The notes under the pieces are model-generated. The model searched no databases and had not been told where the DNA came from. It saw only the letters and a program-made list of their open reading frames with translations. This document shows, piece after piece, positions 41,179-51,996 of a stretch of 55,155 nt of DNA. Made by a program: the position numbers and the translations under genes. Positions within the stretch are counted from its first letter, which is position 1; each line of letters opens with the position of its first letter. This DNA is from Bacteroidota bacterium (GTDB lineage Bacteria > Bacteroidota > Rhodothermia > Rhodothermales > UBA10348). Where the stretch lies: contig JAJCYQ010000059.1 in NCBI GenBank assembly GCA_029262835.1, positions 1-55,155 of the forward strand, read 5' to 3'.

Positions 41179-44100
41179 ATGTACCTCAGTAAGCTCGAAC
41201 TGCACGGTTTCAAGAGTTTTGCCGACCGGACCGTGGTTGACTTCGCCCCGGGCGTCACGTGCGTCGTCGGCCCGAATGGGTGTGGCAAGTCGAATATTGT
41301 AGATGCCGTACGCTGGGTCATTGGCGAACAGCGCGCGCGCATATTGCGTAGCGACAAGATGGATAACGTGATTTTCAACGGCACGTCGAAGCGCCGGGCG
41401 CTCGGCATGTCGGAGGTCATGCTGACCATTGAGAATACGAGGGGCATTCTCCCGATCGAATACTCGGAGGTGACCATTGGCCGGCGTCTCTTCCGCAGCG
41501 GAGAGTCCGAGTACCTGCTCAACGGCGTGCAGTGCCGACTGAAGGACATCACGGACCTGTTCATGGATACAGGAATGGGTGCTGGTGCCTACTCGGTGAT
41601 CGAACTCAAGATGATCGAAGAGCTGCTCTCGGACAACGCCCAGGACCGGCGCCACCTGTTTGAGGAAGCGGCTGGCATTACCAAATACAAGATTCGCCGG
41701 GGGCAGACGCTCCGGAAGCTCAAAACGACGCAGGTTGACCTGGACCGGGTGCGCGACCTGACCGACGAACTCGACAAACGCGTCAAGAACCTGGAGCGGC
41801 AGGCCCGCAAGACCGCCCGCTACAAGGAATATGAGACGGAACTGCGCGAGCTGGAGTTGTCGCTCGCCACGCTGGAATTCCTCGCGCTCGCCAGCGGCAT
41901 TACCGAGTCGACGGAGGCGCGCACCGTGGCCGAGCAGGACGCCGAGACACTCGGCGCGCGCGTAAGTGCCCAGGAAGCCGACCATCAGGCGCTGCAGAAG
42001 GAATACGTGGACCGCGAAAAGCTGGTCTCCGAGGGGCAGACCCGCCTGAGTCGGCATATCGACCGGCTGCGTGCGGCCGAGTCGGACCTCCGCGTGGGGA
42101 CCGAACGCTTGACCGTCATTGCCCGCGACCTGACCCGCCTCGCGGAGGAAGAAAAATCCAACGCGGCGCGACGCGACCTGCTCGTACGCGTGCTGGAGCG
42201 GAGCCGCCAGGACCAGGAAAGCGCGCAGCCCGCCGCGACGACGGCCGAGGCCGCGCTGACCGATGCGCGGCGCATCCGGGACGAAGCCCAGAACACGCAG
42301 CAGAAACACCAGGCGAAACTGCAGAGCCTCAGGCAGGAGGAGCGCAACGTGCTGGCCGAGCGCGCGGCGCGCGAGCGGCATGTGGACCGCCTCACGACCC
42401 GCGTCGAGGTCATTACGGCCGAGATGGAAGAGCGGCGCGCCGCGCGCGAAGCGCTCGGCGCAGGAACGGACGACATGGAGGCGCAGCTTGCCGCGGCGCG
42501 CGAAGCGGCCACGGCTGCCAGGAAAGCGTTCTTACAGGCCCAGGAGGCCGTGGACAGCCAGGTAGCGGCGCGCCAGGAGGCCGAAGACGTGCTCGCTACG
42601 GCCCGGGCAGCGGCCCGCAGCGCCGAGCGCGCCTATGACGCGGCGGCTGCCGAAGCCGGCCTGCTCCGCGGACTCGTGGAGAGCTTCGATGATCTTGGTG
42701 AATCGGTACGCTTCCTGGCCGAGGACACGGACTGGACCGATGGTGAGCTCGTGACCGTCGCCGACGTACTCGGCTGCGATGCCGAGTGGAAGGCGGCCGT
42801 CGACACAGCACTTGGTGAGCTGGCAGGCTGTATCGTGGTGGCGGGCGACAGGGAGCTCAATGCCGCGGTCGCCAAATTGCGCCGGGACGGCAAAGGCCAG
42901 GCCAGCTTCGTTGTACTGGAACGTCTGGCGGACAACGCTCCGGAAGGCTACAGCGCTCCGGAAGGCTACAGCGCTCCGCGTGGCGCGACCCCGCTCATAC
43001 GCGTCGTGCGCGTGGCCGAGCCGAGGTACGAACCGCTTGCCCGCACATTGCTGCACGACACCTGGCTCGTCGACAGTATAGACGGCGTCCGGGCACCGGC
43101 AGGCGCCCGGATCGTTGCCCGAACCGGCGAATGGACCGGCGGCTCGGGTGTTGTGCATGCCGGCAGCCGGCAGGAGCAGGTATCGGTTGCCGCCTCCCGC
43201 ATGGGCCGCCGCGAACAACTCGCCCACCTCGAGGAGGAGGTGAGCCGGCTCGAGGCCGCGGCTGAAAAAGCGGCCAGCGACGTCCGAAGCGCCGAGGCCA
43301 CGCTCGAAACGTTCGATGTCGGCGCCGCTCGGCGGTCGCTCGAAGCCGCGCGCTCCGAGCACACCGCGGCCGACAAAGCCCTCTCACGCGCCGAATACGA
43401 GAATGAGACCGCCTCGCGGCGCCGCTCCGAAATTGACGAGCGCCTCCGTACGCTCGAGGAGCAGCGCACGGCCACGATCGCCGAGAAGGAAGGCATTGCG
43501 GCATCGCTCACGCAGGTCAGCGTACAGGTTGCCGATATCCAGCAGCGTCGCGCCGACGCCGAGGCCTCGTTCGGCAAGATTGAAGAAGCCAGCCGCGAGG
43601 CCTTCGACTTCTTCAATGAAGCCAACATCACGGCCGTACAGACACGCAACCGGCTCGACAACCTGAAGCGGGACATCCAGAGGAACCAGGACGACCTGAA
43701 TGAGCTCGAGCGGCGCGAGAAGGAGCGGGCGGATGCCATCGTGGCGCTCACAGCGCAGGAGGCCGAAACGAAAGAGCGCTGCGCGGCGCTCGAAAAAGAC
43801 CTCGAGAAACTGCTGGCTGCGCGTAGCGCGATGGAAAAGGAGGTATCGGCCGCCAAGGACGAACTCATGGAGTCGCGCGTCAAGATATCGGACATCGAGG
43901 CGACACTCCGCGGACTCCGGCGCGACCGTGAGGCCGCGCTCAAACTCGTATCGAGCCATGACGTACGCCTTGCGGAGCTTCAGACGCGGCGTGAAGACCT
44001 CTGCCGCACGGCGCTCGAGGATTTCGAAGTGGACCTTGAAGATGAGGATTCGTGGGAGCACGAGGTGCCGGAAGACTTTGACCGGACAGCGGCCCGCGAA

Positions 44101-44751
44101 CGCGTGCATGAACTGAAGGGCAAGATCCGCAACATGGGGCCCGTGAACGCCCTCGCCCTCGAGTCTTTCGAGGAGGAGCAGGAGCGGCTCACGTTCCTGA
44201 CCGAACAACTCGCCGACCTCGAAGGGGCCGAGGAGACGCTGCTCAGGACCATTGGCGAAATCAATACGACGGCGAGCGAGCGTTTCGACGCCACGTTTGG
44301 AGCCATCCAGGAGAACTTCCGCCGCCTGTTTGCCGATCTGTTCGGCGAGGGCGCGTCGGCCGACGTTGTGCTGGCCGACCCCAACGACCCGCTCGAATCA
44401 GAAATCGAGATCTTCGCCAAACCGCGCGGCAAGAGGCCGAGCGTACTCGCGCAGCTCTCGGGCGGCGAGAAAACGCTCACCGCCATCGCCCTGCTGTTCT
44501 CGATCTATCTCGTCAAGCCGAGCCCATTCTGTATTCTGGATGAGGTCGATGCGCCGCTCGACGACGCGAACGTGGGCCGCTTCATGCAGCTCATCCGCAC
44601 ATTCTCCGACACGACGCAGTTCATACTCGTTACCCACAACAAGCGCACCATGGAAGCCGCCGACCGCATGTACGGTATTACCATGCGCGAGCAGGGCGTT
44701 TCGCGCCTTGTGGGGGTCACGTTCGAGGACGGCCTGGATATGGTGGCTTGA
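41179..44751 (+). CDS. smc: Chromosome segregation protein SMC
   Basis: A 1190-residue SMC ATPase, the core of bacterial condensin. The N-terminal head has GPNGCGKSN (Walker A, about residues 31-39). Long coiled coils flank a hinge around residues 520-650 (WTDGELVTVADVLG to RIVARTGEW). The C-terminal head has the signature LSGGEKTLTA and Walker B FCILDEVDAPLDD. Within the hinge, an 18-bp unit is duplicated (42937-42978), giving APEGYS twice, probably in a surface loop. The gene is divergent from the sigma/kinase operon and convergent with hprK. ScpA and ScpB are not in the window. Confidence 0.96.
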   Translation: MYLSKLELHGFKSFADRTVVDFAPGVTCVVGPNGCGKSNIVDAVRWVIGEQRARILRSDKMDNVIFNGTSKRRALGMSEVMLTIENTRGILPIEYSEVTIGRRLFRSGESEYLLNGVQCRLKDITDLFMDTGMGAGAYSVIELKMIEELLSDNAQDRRHLFEEAAGITKYKIRRGQTLRKLKTTQVDLDRVRDLTDELDKRVKNLERQARKTARYKEYETELRELELSLATLEFLALASGITESTEARTVAEQDAETLGARVSAQEADHQALQKEYVDREKLVSEGQTRLSRHIDRLRAAESDLRVGTERLTVIARDLTRLAEEEKSNAARRDLLVRVLERSRQDQESAQPAATTAEAALTDARRIRDEAQNTQQKHQAKLQSLRQEERNVLAERAARERHVDRLTTRVEVITAEMEERRAAREALGAGTDDMEAQLAAAREAATAARKAFLQAQEAVDSQVAARQEAEDVLATARAAARSAERAYDAAAAEAGLLRGLVESFDDLGESVRFLAEDTDWTDGELVTVADVLGCDAEWKAAVDTALGELAGCIVVAGDRELNAAVAKLRRDGKGQASFVVLERLADNAPEGYSAPEGYSAPRGATPLIRVVRVAEPRYEPLARTLLHDTWLVDSIDGVRAPAGARIVARTGEWTGGSGVVHAGSRQEQVSVAASRMGRREQLAHLEEEVSRLEAAAEKAASDVRSAEATLETFDVGAARRSLEAARSEHTAADKALSRAEYENETASRRRSEIDERLRTLEEQRTATIAEKEGIAASLTQVSVQVADIQQRRADAEASFGKIEEASREAFDFFNEANITAVQTRNRLDNLKRDIQRNQDDLNELERREKERADAIVALTAQEAETKERCAALEKDLEKLLAARSAMEKEVSAAKDELMESRVKISDIEATLRGLRRDREAALKLVSSHDVRLAELQTRREDLCRTALEDFEVDLEDEDSWEHEVPEDFDRTAARERVHELKGKIRNMGPVNALALESFEEEQERLTFLTEQLADLEGAEETLLRTIGEINTTASERFDATFGAIQENFRRLFADLFGEGASADVVLADPNDPLESEIEIFAKPRGKRPSVLAQLSGGEKTLTAIALLFSIYLVKPSPFCILDEVDAPLDDANVGRFMQLIRTFSDTTQFILVTHNKRTMEAADRMYGITMREQGVSRLVGVTFEDGLDMVA

Positions 44752-44783: not shown

Positions 44784-45808
44784 CTATTCGTAGTCGTGCT
44801 CGAAGTACTCGACACCGCGCACCGGAGCTTCATTGGCCACTCCTTTCTCTCGTATCCGCGATGACAGGCGCTCGGCAAACACCTTGGCCGGATCATACCC
44901 GTAGTGGCGCAGGATGTGGTTCATGGCAATGACTTCGCAGAGGACCGTGACGTTCTTGCCCGGCGTCACGGGGAGTTTGACGAGCGGCAAATCGACCCCC
45001 ATGAGCGGGTACTGCTCATCTATCATACCGAGCCGCGTGTACTCCTGGTCCGGATCCCACGGATGCAGATTGACGACGACCTCGACCCGCTTCTGGAAGC
45101 GTATGGCGCGGATCCCAAACATGGCCCGGACATCGACGAGGCCGAGCCCACGGATTTCCATGAAATGCTGGACCAGGTCGGTGCCAGCTCCCATGAGGAT
45201 ATCGTCCTCCTTGCGCGTAACCATGACGACGTCGTCGGCAACAAGGCGGTGACCACGCTCTACAAGGTCAAGGGCGACTTCACTCTTACCAATGCCAGCC
45301 GGGCCAATGATGAGCAGCCCAATACCGTAGACGTCGACGAGCGAGCCGTGAACCGACTGCTGCAGGGCAAACTGATCGGCCAGGAAATCACGCAGCAGGT
45401 ACATGAACTGCGTGGACGGCATGGGCGTCACATAGACCGGCACGCCCGCATTGGTAGCCATGGCAAGCAATTCCTTGTCCATTTCATTCCCTTCCGTGAG
45501 AATGAAACAGGGGACCGGAAAACGAAGCACGTTGTTGAATGCCTTGGCCCGCGCCTCCGCGTCCAGATGATCCAGGAACCGCGTCTCGGTGTTACCCAGC
45601 ACCTGCACGCGCTTGTACGTGAAGAGCTCAAGGTAGCCAGCCAGCGCGAGCCCGGGGCGGTGCAGACTGGCATCGGTAATTACGCGCTCGTCGGCGGCCG
45701 CGCTATTGAGCGGTTTGATGGCGACGCCAACCAGTGTTTCGAGCTGCCGAATGGCGAAATCGACCGTAATCGACTCCTTCTTGAAGGTTTTTGGTTGGCG
45801 ACTCGGCA

Positions 45809-45809
<1 letters not shown>
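44784..45809 (-). CDS. hprK: HPr kinase/phosphorylase
   Basis: A 341-residue protein with the HprK plan: N-terminal domain (LAGYLELFTYKRVQVLGNTE), P-loop GPAGIGKSE with downstream ALDLVERGHRLVADDVV, and the family signature FMEIRGLGLVDV. HprK phosphorylates and dephosphorylates a serine of HPr to tie sugar uptake to metabolism. Many Bacteroidota and proteobacteria have it without a full sugar PTS. Its ATG overlaps the stop of the MoxR gene (TGATG), so both are made from one mRNA. No HPr gene is in the window. Confidence 0.93.
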
Positions 45810-46810
<1,001 letters not shown>

Positions 46811-48022
46811 TCAGATTATCAATGCGTGTATGTCGTCCGTGTCGTGCCCCGAGCGCACGGCATCCAGGTAGGCAGGCAGCGAAAAAGGCCGCCCGGCTAC
46901 GAGCAGCATGCCGCACTCCCCGGTTCCGACCATCCCGTAAATACCCTCGATGCTCATGCGTTCCGCAGTTTCGACGGCGGGCCCGGAAACCTCCGTCCCG
47001 GTGCCCCAGTCGTTGGTCGACGAAGCCAGTGAAATCTTCAGCAGCGCTCCGAACAGCTGCCAGTCCGCTTTCCGAATGGCCACGACCAGTTTCTGCACGT
47101 TCCGGTTCGAGGATACCAGGTGCCGGATGGCCGGTCGAAACCTGCGCGACGCCATGTCCAGCGCCCGTTCCAGATCCCGATGTTCCAGATTTCGAAGCGA
47201 TGTCAGCCCCTCGAACCCTTTCCCGGCCAGCTCTCGCGTAGCACTCGCCGCCAACTCCGCACGGCGCCGCATGGCCGTAACATCGATCATGCTCTGGGGA
47301 GATGCATCGAACAGTGCAAACCCCGGACGCTGGGTGTCGGGAAACTCGACCGCAATATGATCGCCGTTGCGCGCATCGACCAGAATGAACGGAGCCTCCT
47401 CCGCGAGCGCAGCGGCCGCGGTAAAGGCGCGACTGATTTTCGTGCCGAGCGCCGCTTCGAGCAGGCCATGTGCCCTTGTGGCCAGTTTTTCGCTCGCCTG
47501 TTTTCCGGGGTTTTCCAATTTGTCACCGCAGGCAACGAGCGCCAGGGCGAGCGATGCGAAATACGCCACGCCAAGACCCGCGGGAAGCGCTGTCACGAGC
47601 GCCACATCCAGTCCGGTGGTTCCAGTGCCGCTGGCGTCCGACGGCGCGGCCCGGTCCAGGAGTGCCGCCAGGATCGGCGCACGGCGCCGATCTTCCTCTC
47701 GAGAGAGGTCAATGATATCGGACACCGCTTCATACGCAATCCGCGTGCGCCCCAGCGTGTTGGGCCGCAGCGCGACGGCCGTTCCCTGCCGCATGTGCAG
47801 CATGAGCGCAAACCCGTCCACGTAATGTGTGTGGTCGGCTACAATGCCGACGGCCCCGTGCGAAAAGGCAGCCACCGGCAGCGGGCCCTCACCGCCGAGC
47901 CGCTCCACAAGCAGGGCCTTGGCCCGGTCCTCGTACTGGATGGGGCGCAGCGACTCGTTGGCCTGTATCCGGTTGTACGCATACAGGAACGGCTGGACGA
48001 AACTCGGAGTGGGCTTATTCAA
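46811..48022 (-). CDS. Degenerate galactokinase homologue (probable pseudoenzyme)
   Basis: A 403-residue GHMP-kinase-fold protein that tracks galactokinase from end to end. VGIVADHTHYVDGFAL stands where GalK has G-E-H-T-D-Y-N-x-G-F; LPAGLGVAYFASLALAL stands for the phosphate loop P-x-G-x-G-L-S-S-S-A-S; the MDQ motif with the catalytic Asp is absent before FILVDARNGD; AMRRRAELA, then GLTSLRNLE, RHLVSSNRNVQ and TEVSGPAVET follow GalK order; and VGTGECG replaces G-G-G-F-G-G-C. All four functional motifs are changed, so kinase activity is doubtful. The start is a TTG at 48022 with GGAG 6 bases upstream (48029-48032), overlapping fmt by 8 bases; an ATG at 48052 is the alternative. Confidence 0.7.
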   Translation of the reverse strand: MNKPTPSFVQPFLYAYNRIQANESLRPIQYEDRAKALLVERLGGEGPLPVAAFSHGAVGIVADHTHYVDGFALMLHMRQGTAVALRPNTLGRTRIAYEAVSDIIDLSREEDRRRAPILAALLDRAAPSDASGTGTTGLDVALVTALPAGLGVAYFASLALALVACGDKLENPGKQASEKLATRAHGLLEAALGTKISRAFTAAAALAEEAPFILVDARNGDHIAVEFPDTQRPGFALFDASPQSMIDVTAMRRRAELAASATRELAGKGFEGLTSLRNLEHRDLERALDMASRRFRPAIRHLVSSNRNVQKLVVAIRKADWQLFGALLKISLASSTNDWGTGTEVSGPAVETAERMSIEGIYGMVGTGECGMLLVAGRPFSLPAYLDAVRSGHDTDDIHALII

Positions 48023-49001
48023 GACGATCTCCGGTCTGCATGTCCGACCCATTGAGGAACGTCTGCACGGCGAGTCGCCGCCGCCCCGCCTGCTGCAGTT
48101 CGCGCACCTCGACATGTCCGTCGGCGCACGCGACAAAGAGGCGCTCCTCCTGACGCACAACAGTACCCGGGGTATTCGCGCTGTCACCATGCTGGCCCGC
48201 GGCCAGCGGCTCGCCCGGCGCAGGCTCCGAAATGGTCGAGCGGAATAGCGTCAACCGCGTTTGGTTCGGGCCGTGCACCGTCCACGCCCCCGGTACGGGC
48301 GACAGTCCGCGGATGAAATTGTGTACGTCCTGCGCCGACCGCCCCCAGTCAATGCGGCTTTCCGACTTATGGACCTTGGGAGCCGCGCTGGCCAGTTGGT
48401 CGTCCTGGGCCTCGGAATCGGCCCGGCCTTCGAGAATAAGGCGCACCGTGTCCACGACGGTCTCCGCGCCGAGCACCATCATGCGATCGTGGACGTCGCC
48501 CGTTGTCTCGTCCGGACCAATCGGCATGGAACGCCGCAGGATGAGCTGGCCCGTATCGACCTTCTCCTGCAGAAAGAACGTCGTGACCCCGGTTTCCGTC
48601 TCACCCGCCATCACAGCACGGTGAATGGGTGCGGCACCCCGATAGGCTGGCAGGAGTGACCCGTGGAGGTTGAACGCGCCCATACTGGCAAGGCCATACA
48701 CCTCCGGAGGAAGAATGCGAAAGGCCACCACCACGATAATATCGGGTTCGAGCGCCGCTACGTCGCGCGCAAAGGCAGGATCGCGGACCGAATCGGGTTG
48801 CAGGATGTGCTCAATGCCATGATTCAGGGCCGCAGATTTCACGGCACACGGCGAGACGGCCCCACCGCGCCCCCGTGCCTTGTCGGGAGCTGTCACGACA
48901 GCCATCGGGGCGAGGTGGGCTTCGACAAGAGCGTTGAGCGACGCCACGGCAAATTCGGGCGTGCCCATGAACACGATATGGGGCTGCGGGTGAGCGGTCA
49001 T
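48015..49001 (-). CDS. fmt: Methionyl-tRNA formyltransferase
   Basis: A 328-residue enzyme that formylates initiator Met-tRNA. Marks are IVFMGTPEFAVASL at the start, FNLHGSLLPAYRGAAPIHRAVMAGETETGVTTFFL (formyl-folate site with N-x-H and the following D in KVDTG), and a C-terminal tRNA-binding domain (about 205-328) with IDW and FIRGLSPVPGAWT. The start at 49001 was chosen because M-T-A-H leads straight into the first strand. Its end overlaps the next gene by 8 bases. Confidence 0.95.
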   Translation of the reverse strand: MTAHPQPHIVFMGTPEFAVASLNALVEAHLAPMAVVTAPDKARGRGGAVSPCAVKSAALNHGIEHILQPDSVRDPAFARDVAALEPDIIVVVAFRILPPEVYGLASMGAFNLHGSLLPAYRGAAPIHRAVMAGETETGVTTFFLQEKVDTGQLILRRSMPIGPDETTGDVHDRMMVLGAETVVDTVRLILEGRADSEAQDDQLASAAPKVHKSESRIDWGRSAQDVHNFIRGLSPVPGAWTVHGPNQTRLTLFRSTISEPAPGEPLAAGQHGDSANTPGTVVRQEERLFVACADGHVEVRELQQAGRRRLAVQTFLNGSDMQTGDRLE

Positions 49002-49029: not shown

Positions 49030-50355
49030 TCAGTACAACTTGGTCCGCTCATCCCAGACCGGCACCAGCAGCTGATAGTCGCCGAACCCGGTCTCATCCA
49101 CAAAAATGAACTGGCGCCCAATGCGCTCGTAAACCCAGACCTCGTACGGCTCGTAGCCGAAGCTGTAGGGCTTGTGCTGCACATGGTCCGGCTCGCCGAA
49201 ACGGACAAGCACAAAGCCACGATCCGTTTTCCAGCCATCCACGATACTTGCGCTGTACTGCCGATTGGCCGACGCTATCCGGTAGTAGTACTCTTCCATG
49301 CGCTCGTTCCGGCTGGTGCCGGGTGTCGGGTCGCGGCGATCCCAGAACTGATTGAACCGCTCTTGCCGCTCCACACCATTTGGAGCACTCTTGATGAAGT
49401 TCAGGTCGCGCTTCTTGGCAATATACTCGAGCTGCGCAATGGCCTGGTCAATATCGTCAATATGGTCACTGAGACCCGACCAAGCTACCTCTACGCGGCG
49501 GGCAACCGACGCCACCGGGCGCCCATCCAGGCTCTCCACCTCGACCGAGAGGCGATAGGAGCCCACTTCAAGCTCGGCAACGGGCATGGTGACCAGATAC
49601 TGGGTGCGCCCTTCTTCGAGCGTCACAATGTCTTCCTTCGAGTACACGAGTTCATCGGTACTCGAACCGGTCGCTTCGTCGGCGCGGGCGCGTTCAACCT
49701 GCTGCGTGATGACCACGTCGCGGTCCTCGTCAGCATACACCTCGTAAAACACCTGGAAGCCCGCTTCACTCGACTGTACACGCCCACCGACCTTGGGGAC
49801 AATCGTGAAGTCCTCATCGTCAAACGATTCAAGCAGCGTGATGTCGCTGATGGCCACAGGGCCACTCAGATCCCGCACGAATACGTCGTACTCGCGGAAA
49901 TAGGTCTGATTGGAGTTGTCATCCCGCAGGGAGTACTCGAAAATGTAGCGCCCCGGGTTGATCTCGAATGTCTGTGTTGTGACATCGAATTCGGCATCCA
50001 ACTGGGTTTCGGCGTACGTGCCGGCCGTCAATTTCGACTGCCAGATCTTCGACTCGACCAGGTTGCGGATGCGCCCTTCTTCAGACAACTGGGTAACGTC
50101 GAGCTTGACTTCGTACCCGGCCGTAAACCCGTTGACACTGTTGATAAAGCTCAACTTCGAGATCGGAATGCGCGTGTAGGTGTCAATTTTGGACAGCGCC
50201 GGGTTGGCCTCGCTGCGGGCCACCAGCACATCGACCTCAAAATCTTCCTGTGCAGCCGCCTCTGGCACCAGCACGGTAAACGCCAACAGGAGGGCCACCA
50301 TGAAGGCATGCCCCCCGCACCTGGCTTTCCGTATGTATTCGTAACAACAGTTCAT
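49030..50355 (-). CDS. GWxTD domain-containing secreted protein
   Basis: A 441-residue protein with a signal peptide (hydrophobic FMVALLLAFTVLVPEAAAQE). The C-terminal part holds the name-giving D-GWKTDRGFVLVRFGEPDHV, followed by YEPYEVWVY and FVDETGFGDYQL. The middle is beta-rich. GWxTD proteins are common in Bacteroidota and related phyla, usually exported, and have no proven function. Between fmt and ftsY on the same strand, with 28 bases to fmt. Confidence 0.9.
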   Translation of the reverse strand: MNCCYEYIRKARCGGHAFMVALLLAFTVLVPEAAAQEDFEVDVLVARSEANPALSKIDTYTRIPISKLSFINSVNGFTAGYEVKLDVTQLSEEGRIRNLVESKIWQSKLTAGTYAETQLDAEFDVTTQTFEINPGRYIFEYSLRDDNSNQTYFREYDVFVRDLSGPVAISDITLLESFDDEDFTIVPKVGGRVQSSEAGFQVFYEVYADEDRDVVITQQVERARADEATGSSTDELVYSKEDIVTLEEGRTQYLVTMPVAELEVGSYRLSVEVESLDGRPVASVARRVEVAWSGLSDHIDDIDQAIAQLEYIAKKRDLNFIKSAPNGVERQERFNQFWDRRDPTPGTSRNERMEEYYYRIASANRQYSASIVDGWKTDRGFVLVRFGEPDHVQHKPYSFGYEPYEVWVYERIGRQFIFVDETGFGDYQLLVPVWDERTKLY

Positions 50356-50435: not shown

Positions 50436-51413
50436 TTACGAACGGTCAGACCGTCCCTGCGAACCGAATAGTGCCTGCACGAACCGCCGCTGATCAAAAA
50501 TCTGAAGGTCGTCAATACCTTCTCCTACCCCGATGTATTTGACCGGAATGCGGAATTCATTCGAGATGCCAATCACGATGCCTCCTTTGGCCGTCCCATC
50601 AAGCTTGGTGAGCACGAGACCGGTCACATCGACACTCCGCGTGAACTCCTGCGCCTGACGAATGGCATTCTGTCCGGTAGATGCATCGAGTACAAGCAGT
50701 ACCTCGTGCGGACTGCCGGGCAGTTGTCGATCCATGACGCGCTTGACCTTGGAGAGCTCATCCATGAGTCCACCCTTCGTGTGTAGCCTGCCCGCCGTAT
50801 CGACCAGTACCACGTCGCTGCCCCGGCTCATGGCGCTCGCCACCGTATCGAATGCCACCGCGGCCGGATCGGCGCCGTGCCCCTGTTTGATGATAGGAAC
50901 GCCCGAGCGCTCCGCCCAGATGTCGAGCTGCTCCGTCGCAGCCGCCCGGAATGTATCGGCAGCCCCGAGGAGTACGTTCTTTCCGGCGGCCTTGTAGCGG
51001 GCCGCCATTTTCCCGATGGTGGTCGTCTTGCCTACACCGTTTACGCCCACGACCATGATAACGTGGGGTTTGTTGGGCAGCACGGCGTCGAAGGCGACGG
51101 GCCTGTCGGCCGATGCCGAGAGCAGCAACCGGGCAATCTCGTCCTGTACAATGGTGTCAAGCTCCGAAGTCGAGACATACTTGTCCCGGGCCACTCGCGC
51201 CTCAACGGCTCCGATGATATCGACTGTCGTTTTTACACCCACGTCGGAGGTTACCAACGCTTCCTCCAGCTCATCCAGTACCGCATCGTCGACGGTATCT
51301 TTTCCGGCCACGATCCGGGAGAGCTTGCCAAAGAACGACGACCGGGTCTTCTCCAGTCCGGTTTCCAGATTTTCCTGTTGCTTGTCGCGCTTCAGCGCGT
51401 CGAAAAGGCCCAT
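50436..51413 (-). CDS. ftsY: Signal recognition particle receptor FtsY
   Basis: A 325-residue SRP GTPase that docks ribosome-SRP complexes at the membrane. A short N-terminus replaces the long acidic domain of E. coli. The N domain holds ELEEALVTSDVGVKTT, and the G domain the P-loop GVNGVGKTTTIGKMA, the insertion-box region DTFRAAATEQL, DTAGR, TKLDGTAKGG and GVGEGIDDL. It starts one base after the stop of the pgsA-like gene, so they form a pair. Confidence 0.95.
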   Translation of the reverse strand: MGLFDALKRDKQQENLETGLEKTRSSFFGKLSRIVAGKDTVDDAVLDELEEALVTSDVGVKTTVDIIGAVEARVARDKYVSTSELDTIVQDEIARLLLSASADRPVAFDAVLPNKPHVIMVVGVNGVGKTTTIGKMAARYKAAGKNVLLGAADTFRAAATEQLDIWAERSGVPIIKQGHGADPAAVAFDTVASAMSRGSDVVLVDTAGRLHTKGGLMDELSKVKRVMDRQLPGSPHEVLLVLDASTGQNAIRQAQEFTRSVDVTGLVLTKLDGTAKGGIVIGISNEFRIPVKYIGVGEGIDDLQIFDQRRFVQALFGSQGRSDRS

Positions 51414-51414
51414 G

Positions 51415-51996
51415 TCAATTGTCGTTGGAATCGGGTGCGTGTCGCACCAAAAAAGTGAATCGGACGATGTACCGGAAAAGCGACCAAGCCAGCAGGAAGC
51501 TGGTGCCCCAGATACAGAACTGCATAACGGGGGGGTCGGCCTGGAGCAGCGCGGCCAGCACAGTCAGCGAAATACCCGTCACGGCGATCTTGCCGGACAT
51601 CAGACTCATCACAATCTGACCGGTTCGGGCGCGAATAATCACACCGCCTGCAAAAATGATGAAATCCCTCGCCACGATGGCGAAGAAGAACCACTCGGGC
51701 AGGCTCCCGCGCATGGTGAGCGCCATGACGACCATGGCCGCCCCGAGTTTGTCGACAAGCGGATCGAGCACCTTGCCCCAATCGGACACCGTTTGCGACC
51801 AACGGGCCAGTCGACCGTCGAAATAATCGGTGGCGAGCGCCGTCACGACAAGCATCGTAATCCAGACGAGCGATCCATCCACCAGGATGAGGTACGTGAT
51901 GGGCAGGATCAGCACAAGCCGCATCAGCGTCAGGACGTTGGGAATCGTCCAGAACGAGCCCAGGTCAGACCAGGGTGTGCGGCGGGAGTGGGTCAT
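51415..51996 (-). CDS. pgsA: CDP-alcohol phosphatidyltransferase (probable PgsA)
   Basis: A 193-residue membrane enzyme with about five helices and the full catalytic motif D-x2-D-G-x2-A-R-x8-G-x3-D-x3-D, read as DYFDGRLARW, G, then LDPLVD. The opening TIPNVLTLMRLVLILPI is typical of PgsA, which makes phosphatidylglycerol-phosphate from CDP-diacylglycerol. Another alcohol acceptor is possible since substrate specificity is not readable from the motif. It is directly upstream of ftsY. Confidence 0.88.
   Translation of the reverse strand: MTHSRRTPWSDLGSFWTIPNVLTLMRLVLILPITYLILVDGSLVWITMLVVTALATDYFDGRLARWSQTVSDWGKVLDPLVDKLGAAMVVMALTMRGSLPEWFFFAIVARDFIIFAGGVIIRARTGQIVMSLMSGKIAVTGISLTVLAALLQADPPVMQFCIWGTSFLLAWSLFRYIVRFTFLVRHAPDSNDN

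Follow-up and report, generated by a model that had tools for sequence, protein, structure and literature searches.

Yeast offers a textbook example of a galactokinase that became a regulator. Gal3p is described as a galactokinase paralogue that lost its enzymatic activity after duplication and that relieves Gal80p (PMC7556753), and its structure was solved in complex with galactose and ATP (3v2u). MoxR proteins are described as often pairing with a VWA adaptor, the known AAA+/VWA pairs including NorQ-NorD, RavA-ViaA and CbbQ-CbbO (PMC9976466). The locus analyzed here lies on a 55,155-nucleotide contig of a Bacteroidota bacterium of the order Rhodothermales (hereafter the window) and encodes, beside a MoxR ATPase, a galactokinase-like protein that we call GalKL. 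Our results suggest that GalKL, once an enzyme, now has a helper or control function. Open-access literature searches found, by title and start of abstract, nothing on a bacterial inactive galactokinase among the matches listed, and nothing on GalKL for Rhodothermus marinus combined with galactokinase.

Gene context and predicted fold of GalKL

GalKL is encoded by an intact 403-residue reading frame that runs from a TTG start at position 48022 to a TGA stop at 46811-46813, a GGAG stretch recognized by eye ending 6 bases upstream of the TTG. On the minus strand the genes follow each other in the order CDP-alcohol phosphatidyltransferase, FtsY-type GTPase, GWxTD protein, Fmt, GalKL, MoxR and HprK, and the cluster is bounded by a convergent SMC gene:

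51415..51996, minus strand: CDP-alcohol phosphatidyltransferase, PgsA-type (PF01066, 1.1e-29)
50436..51413, minus strand: FtsY-type SRP GTPase (SRP54, 9.5e-78)
49030..50355, minus strand: GWxTD-domain protein, upstream in the same direction (domain match)
48015..49001, minus strand: Fmt, methionyl-tRNA formyltransferase, whose last 8 bases overlap the GalKL start
46811..48022, minus strand: GalKL, predicted galactokinase fold without the catalytic residues (homology and predicted structure)
45809..46810, minus strand: MoxR AAA+ ATPase (AAA_3, 7.2e-65), whose ATG comes right after the GalKL stop with 0 bases between
44784..45809, minus strand: HPr kinase/phosphorylase HprK (TIGR00679, 357.6 bits against a cut-off of 240), whose start shares 1 base with the MoxR stop
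41179..44751, plus strand: SMC, convergent

The names FtsY and PgsA are those that we presume for the SRP GTPase and the phosphatidyltransferase. The original prediction made MoxR and HprK direct neighbors of the galactokinase-like gene, which is right for MoxR, directly downstream, whereas HprK is the gene after MoxR and fmt is the one directly upstream. The genome that contains the window (3.45 Mb in 103 contigs, 97.6% complete) has a single copy of GalKL and no galactokinase above the family cut-off; at E 1e-10 or better, the sole match was on contig 31, to the N-terminal part of a different protein of GHMP type.

Likeness to galactokinase over the whole length of the protein, as first proposed, is far above chance. 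Human GALK1 was matched with an E value of 1.8e-8 over residues 36-368 (phmmer against the PDB), and the GalKL family profile found GALK1 in the PDB at E 1.1e-28. The NCBIfam galactokinase model NF003006 reached E 1.5e-11 on the window protein, yet with 43.9 bits against a cut-off of 443, and TIGR00131 gave 38.1 bits, under its galactokinase cut-off of 226.65. The only Pfam match of the window protein is the galactose-binding signature PF10509, at 18.2 under a gathering score of 23.1, and the Pfam GHMP models match few of 39 GalKL members (C-terminal model in 3, N-terminal model in 1). An AlphaFold2 model of the window protein built with 39 family sequences has a pLDDT of 89.0 and a pTM of 0.88, and its closest PDB structure by Foldseek is human galactokinase (E 5e-23, TM 0.73/0.76). 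In VIA-align the model superposes on GALK1 (1wuu_B) with a Z score of 36.9 and an rmsd of 3.7 over 359 residues, and on the Gal3p complex entry 3v2u with a Z score of 28.5. GalKL of Longimonas halophila, a distant member only 28% identical to the window protein, gave a model of pLDDT 89.3 that matches GALK1 with a Z score of 37.4 and an rmsd of 2.6 over 354 residues. A galactokinase fold is predicted for both of these distant members, and in the window protein it extends over the whole chain of the model.

Residues lost and gained

A scan of genome contigs with two short peptide patterns found at least 40 loci, the contigs of the Rhodothermales family f11 not being among them. We aligned the window protein with those of 38 of the 40 scan loci, the fragments L087 and L088 being omitted, which gave 39 GalKL proteins including some near-copies. 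The comparison set comprises 17 galactokinase-type proteins, all from Rhodothermales genomes and including loci L027 and L029, three GKHTDY-type rows having been dropped from the initial 20. The segments of interest are located as follows:

47822..47839, minus strand: motif 1, ADHTHY, residues 62-67, replacing GEHTDY
47552..47569, minus strand: former ATP loop, VAYFAS, residues 152-157, replacing LSSSAS
47420..47437, minus strand: place of the catalytic Asp (GxMDQ), reading ISRAFT, residues 196-201
47168..47185, minus strand: EHRDLE, residues 280-285, conserved in GalKL
47057..47065, minus strand: DWQ, residues 320-322, W and Q conserved in GalKL
46910..46927, minus strand: motif 3 remnant, GTGECG, residues 366-371, replacing GAGFGG

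The motif replacements described originally, including the missing MDQ, are thus as stated. We assume the roles of individual residues, in sugar contact, in the ATP loop or as catalytic base, from galactokinase structures. The Arg of PGR preceding motif 1, the Asp of GEHTDY, the Ser at 154 and 155 of the LSSSA loop and the catalytic Asp (aligned column 200) are each present in 17/17 galactokinase-type proteins and in 0/39 GalKL proteins, so that none of the three GalK motifs (PGR Arg with GEHTDY, LSSSA loop, GxMDQ catalytic Asp) is found in GalKL. Of two further residues common to all 17, the column-251 Tyr persists in 2 of the 39 and the Arg that precedes motif 3 in 1. Motif 1 is partly retained (H or Q at 64, T65, Y67, G70), and D216, G325 and G363, which are common to galactokinases, occur in 39/39. 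Taken by itself, the reading of GalKL as a non-kinase is one that we hold with high confidence.

These losses bear directly on the Gal3-like sensor suggested in the original prediction, whose old pocket would take up ATP together with galactose or a different sugar before a partner is bound. Such a sensor would fit the fold shared with Gal3p, the partial retention of motif 1 and the detection of the Pfam galactose-binding signature at E 0.01 or better in 17 of the 39 members (best 8.3e-10). Set against this, of the residues corresponding to the sugar contacts Arg survives in 0, Asp in 0 and Tyr in 2 of the 39 proteins, and the ATP-loop serines survive in none, and it is because the sugar and ATP residues are gone besides the catalytic Asp that we consider a Gal3-type sensor very improbable.

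GalKL has also acquired conserved residues of its own. In the place of the GEHTDY Asp, 35 of the 39 proteins carry H66, a near-invariant residue absent from the 17 galactokinase-type proteins. H281 (38/39, 97%), R282 (90%) and Q322 (39/39, 100%) occur in 0/17 of the comparison set, and E280 (90%) and W321 (36/39, 92%) in about 2/17 and 3/17, respectively. It could be proposed from H66, H281 and Q322 that GalKL is still an enzyme, of another kind, with a new active site formed by H66, H281-R282, Q322 and their neighbors and an ATP-independent chemistry. The candidate residues are nonetheless far apart in sequence, at motif 1 and at helix ends, and a binding surface could account for invariant residues just as well; we regard a new enzyme as unlikely.

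For three pairs formed by the window and two close relatives, dN/dS of GalKL is 0.083-0.091, similar to fmt (0.096-0.138), MoxR and HprK being lower (0.02-0.045); with dS of 1.1-1.5 these values are rough. Judged from these sequence comparisons, GalKL is under purifying selection, in agreement with the original statement that the frame is intact and the fold apparently kept under selection. A decaying pseudogene or an assembly error was considered as well, and one gene, L087 3990-5058 in the low-completeness MAG G097, is indeed split over two frames, either as a decaying copy or through an assembly error. The other listed GalKL matches have no internal stop, dN/dS is about 0.09, GalKL occurs in most Rhodothermales families sampled, and the same losses are common to the 38 other aligned members, which contradicts a sequencing error. 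We rejected this explanation as having a negligible chance of being true.

Distribution, linkage and descent

A GalKL profile was built from 25 relatives, window protein included. Scores form two populations, GalKL (near-complete copies from 607 to 221 bits, partial copies from 221 to 121) and galactokinase-type proteins (104 bits at most). The window protein, itself in the profile, scores 533 bits, and with a score far above galactokinases and its linkage to moxR it belongs to the GalKL family. In a profile search of 244 genomes, GalKL was found in 67 of 114 Rhodothermales genomes, a count that takes in partial copies (G004, G044, G087 and G111) and the frame-split copy of G097, as opposed to 0 of 130 other genomes of the class, where the best score was 72 bits. 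The best among 394 genomes drawn evenly from a larger group, our phylum sample, was 100 bits; both values lie in the galactokinase range. So far, GalKL is therefore known from Rhodothermales only. Titles of the 40 pattern-scan loci name members of Rhodothermales or Rhodothermia, or unassigned Bacteroidetes and uncultured bacteria, and named carriers include Salinivenus iranica, Salinivenus lutea and Longimonas halophila. Within the window's family group, 26 of 27 genomes have GalKL; the 27th (G016, 70% complete) has an ordinary galactokinase only. A plasmid search matched 4 records, every one annotated galK. Homology easily mislabels GalKL as galactokinase, and naming the family would mend annotation.

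MoxR lies directly downstream of GalKL on the same strand in 61 of the 67 genomes. Among the other six, G004 and G044 have partial copies and no orthologous MoxR match, GalKL and MoxR are on separate contigs in G046, G087 and G098, and they are 451 kb apart in G094. Counted by locus (57 GalKL loci, less four that duplicate other loci), GalKL adjoins MoxR in 51/53 and, on its other side, Fmt (within 400 bases upstream) in 42/52 evaluable loci, two of the ten loci scored as non-adjacent to Fmt being unsure (L087, measured from its second piece, and L093, with 681 bases). Our genome survey thus bears out that the order fmt-GalKL-moxR-hprK is conserved in much of Rhodothermales. In loci that lack GalKL, Fmt, MoxR and HprK are found closed up (for example L108, L109 and L115) or another gene occupies the gap, coding for an MMPL (L106, L107) or MscS protein (L118), as checked with Pfam for L107 and L118 and read by eye for L106. 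Genes for MMPL-type exporters (L098 7046-9391, L107 10394-12796, L091 11052-13583) and MscS-type channels (L100 10549-11490, L118 10446-11648) are located within or beside the gap between Fmt and GalKL or MoxR in several lineages.

This arrangement raises the alternative that GalKL belongs with Fmt and the upstream genes, or has an unrelated co-transcribed role, its position beside moxR-hprK being operon inheritance only. The overlap of GalKL with fmt in the window and the frequent proximity of Fmt are compatible with this, as are G094 and G098, in which GalKL remains downstream of Fmt while MoxR-HprK is elsewhere. In five loci (L066, L086, L091, L092 and L096), nevertheless, GalKL-MoxR-HprK is retained and no Fmt was detected upstream, and both inserts identified beside GalKL (MMPL in L098, MscS in L100) part Fmt from GalKL, never GalKL from MoxR. 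We consider this alternative, in favor of which the rate correlations given below also count, improbable.

HprK was matched in 92 of the 114 Rhodothermales genomes: in 66 of the 67 with GalKL, the contig of the 67th (G025) ending inside hprK, versus 26 of the 47 without it. The Fisher p value of 3e-10 for this association is inflated by shared ancestry, as 16 of the 21 genomes without either GalKL or HprK come from a single HprK-less family, f3, on which the association largely rests. The f3 genomes (G028-G043, 16 genomes) have kept MoxR and have no HprK, GalKL or intact HPr, an HPr remnant carrying stops being seen in G039. The orthologous f3 MoxR comes after Fmt in G041 and G028, and in G041 genes for an M23 peptidase and an Omp85 protein are next.

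In a tree of 23 GalKL and 25 GHMP proteins, GalKL forms one clade (100/100) with a stem of 2.46 changes per site, and its placement within the galactokinase radiation has 88/96 support, not starred; the tree includes one long row (L083) and drew program warnings of uneven composition. The window's family also contains a second protein of GHMP type, in which the motifs read GKHTDY and GMSSSS (L140, L141 and L142, in G025, G003 and G000, respectively); L140 and L141 sit far from galactokinase in the tree, and the G000 copy was matched in its N-terminal part only. In a quick tree built from MoxR+HprK of 47 chosen loci, GalKL presence requires 8 changes, at least 5 of them forced by starred branches, a count that cannot separate loss from gain and for which L120 and L121, where GalKL is away from MoxR, were set by hand to present. 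From this count and the single GalKL clade, it appears that GalKL was lost on several occasions and that MoxR-HprK remained. MoxR-HprK occurs without GalKL in 26 genomes. Such repeated loss beside a kept MoxR-HprK pair marks GalKL as accessory.

Candidate partners and comparison with known systems

We analyzed rate covariation over 27 loci, with six duplicates or near-duplicates set aside in advance and loci omitted if even one of six near-full genes was missing. With p values for 15 pairs left uncorrected, GalKL covaries with Fmt (partial r 0.41, p 0.001) and PgsA (partial r 0.36, p 0.002), and not significantly with MoxR (partial r 0.19, p 0.08) or HprK (partial r 0.15, p 0.1). Rate covariation thus favors Fmt over MoxR or HprK as partner of GalKL, which speaks for the affiliation with upstream genes discussed above. 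MoxR and HprK covary strongly with each other (partial r 0.69), as a conserved gene pair in its own right.

Neither the window protein nor the 39 GalKL members have a VWA domain among their Pfam matches, and no VWA match was found on the window's contig, which leaves room for GalKL in an adaptor-type role. HPr was found in 89 of the 114 Rhodothermales genomes. In the genome of the window, HPr is encoded next to EI and contains the stretches GLHTRPAS and GKSIIGVM, which we take to be the His15 and Ser46 sites; EIIA-type matches are present and no EIIA-man match was found. This PTS is presumably a regulatory one. One EIIA-type domain (G000 contig 73:1930-2319, L155) lies within a frame of 739 residues and may be joined there to a further domain, and HPr domains occur in open frames of 844-942 residues that are perhaps multidomain PTS fusions (G078, G080-G083, G101-G104). 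Searches of the open-access literature found no paper joining HPr kinase with MoxR, nor HPr kinase with Rhodothermus.

A pseudo-enzyme with a protein partner would be expected to show a kept fold, new conserved residues, both substrate sites lost and an operon position that is stable. We propose that in the ancestor of Rhodothermales, or earlier, a galactokinase paralogue underwent a single loss of its kinase chemistry and may since have been retained as a non-catalytic accessory protein that would work by binding a partner, most likely within the MoxR-HprK module. GalKL could then relay a metabolite or client signal, as an adaptor or an allosteric subunit, either to remodeling by MoxR or to phosphorylation of HPr Ser46 by HprK in the genome-encoded EI-HPr-EIIA system. 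The non-kinase part of this proposal is strong, and the linkage makes joint action with MoxR and HprK plausible, the partnership itself being what we infer. Taken as a whole, the explanation of GalKL as an accessory pseudo-enzyme that acts for the MoxR-HprK module within a regulatory PTS is given an even chance, as rate covariation lent the MoxR/HprK partnership no support. A bolder version, in which the pseudo-galactokinase would be a dedicated MoxR adaptor replacing VWA and the two would jointly remodel or gate HprK in a PTS signaling branch specific to Rhodothermales, is rather doubtful. If the partner is MoxR or HprK, AAA+ remodeling would be linked to HPr-Ser phosphorylation.

Among described systems, GalKL shares with GalK/GALK1 (GHMP kinase superfamily, TIGR00131) a whole-length fold and sequence homology, and differs in having neither catalytic Asp nor ATP loop and in its altered sugar motif. 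The order of MoxR and a putative accessory protein recalls the MoxR/VWA pairs; GalKL, however, has no VWA match and thus falls outside VWA-type adaptors. The genome of the window shares HprK, EI, EIIA and an HPr with His15- and Ser46-type sites with the HprK/HPr regulatory PTS of Gram-negative bacteria, but hprK here lies within a fmt-GalKL-moxR-hprK cluster. Gal3p resembles GalKL in its galactokinase fold and at most in the general sense of such a fold being used for regulation: Gal3p has galactose and ATP in its solved complex and acts on Gal80p, whereas GalKL has neither set of residues and no Gal80 context, and by its sequence does not belong with Gal3-type proteins, if these are defined by galactose and ATP residues retained alongside a lost kinase activity. 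A bacterial order appears to have done a comparable thing independently and more completely, keeping the fold and discarding both substrate sites.
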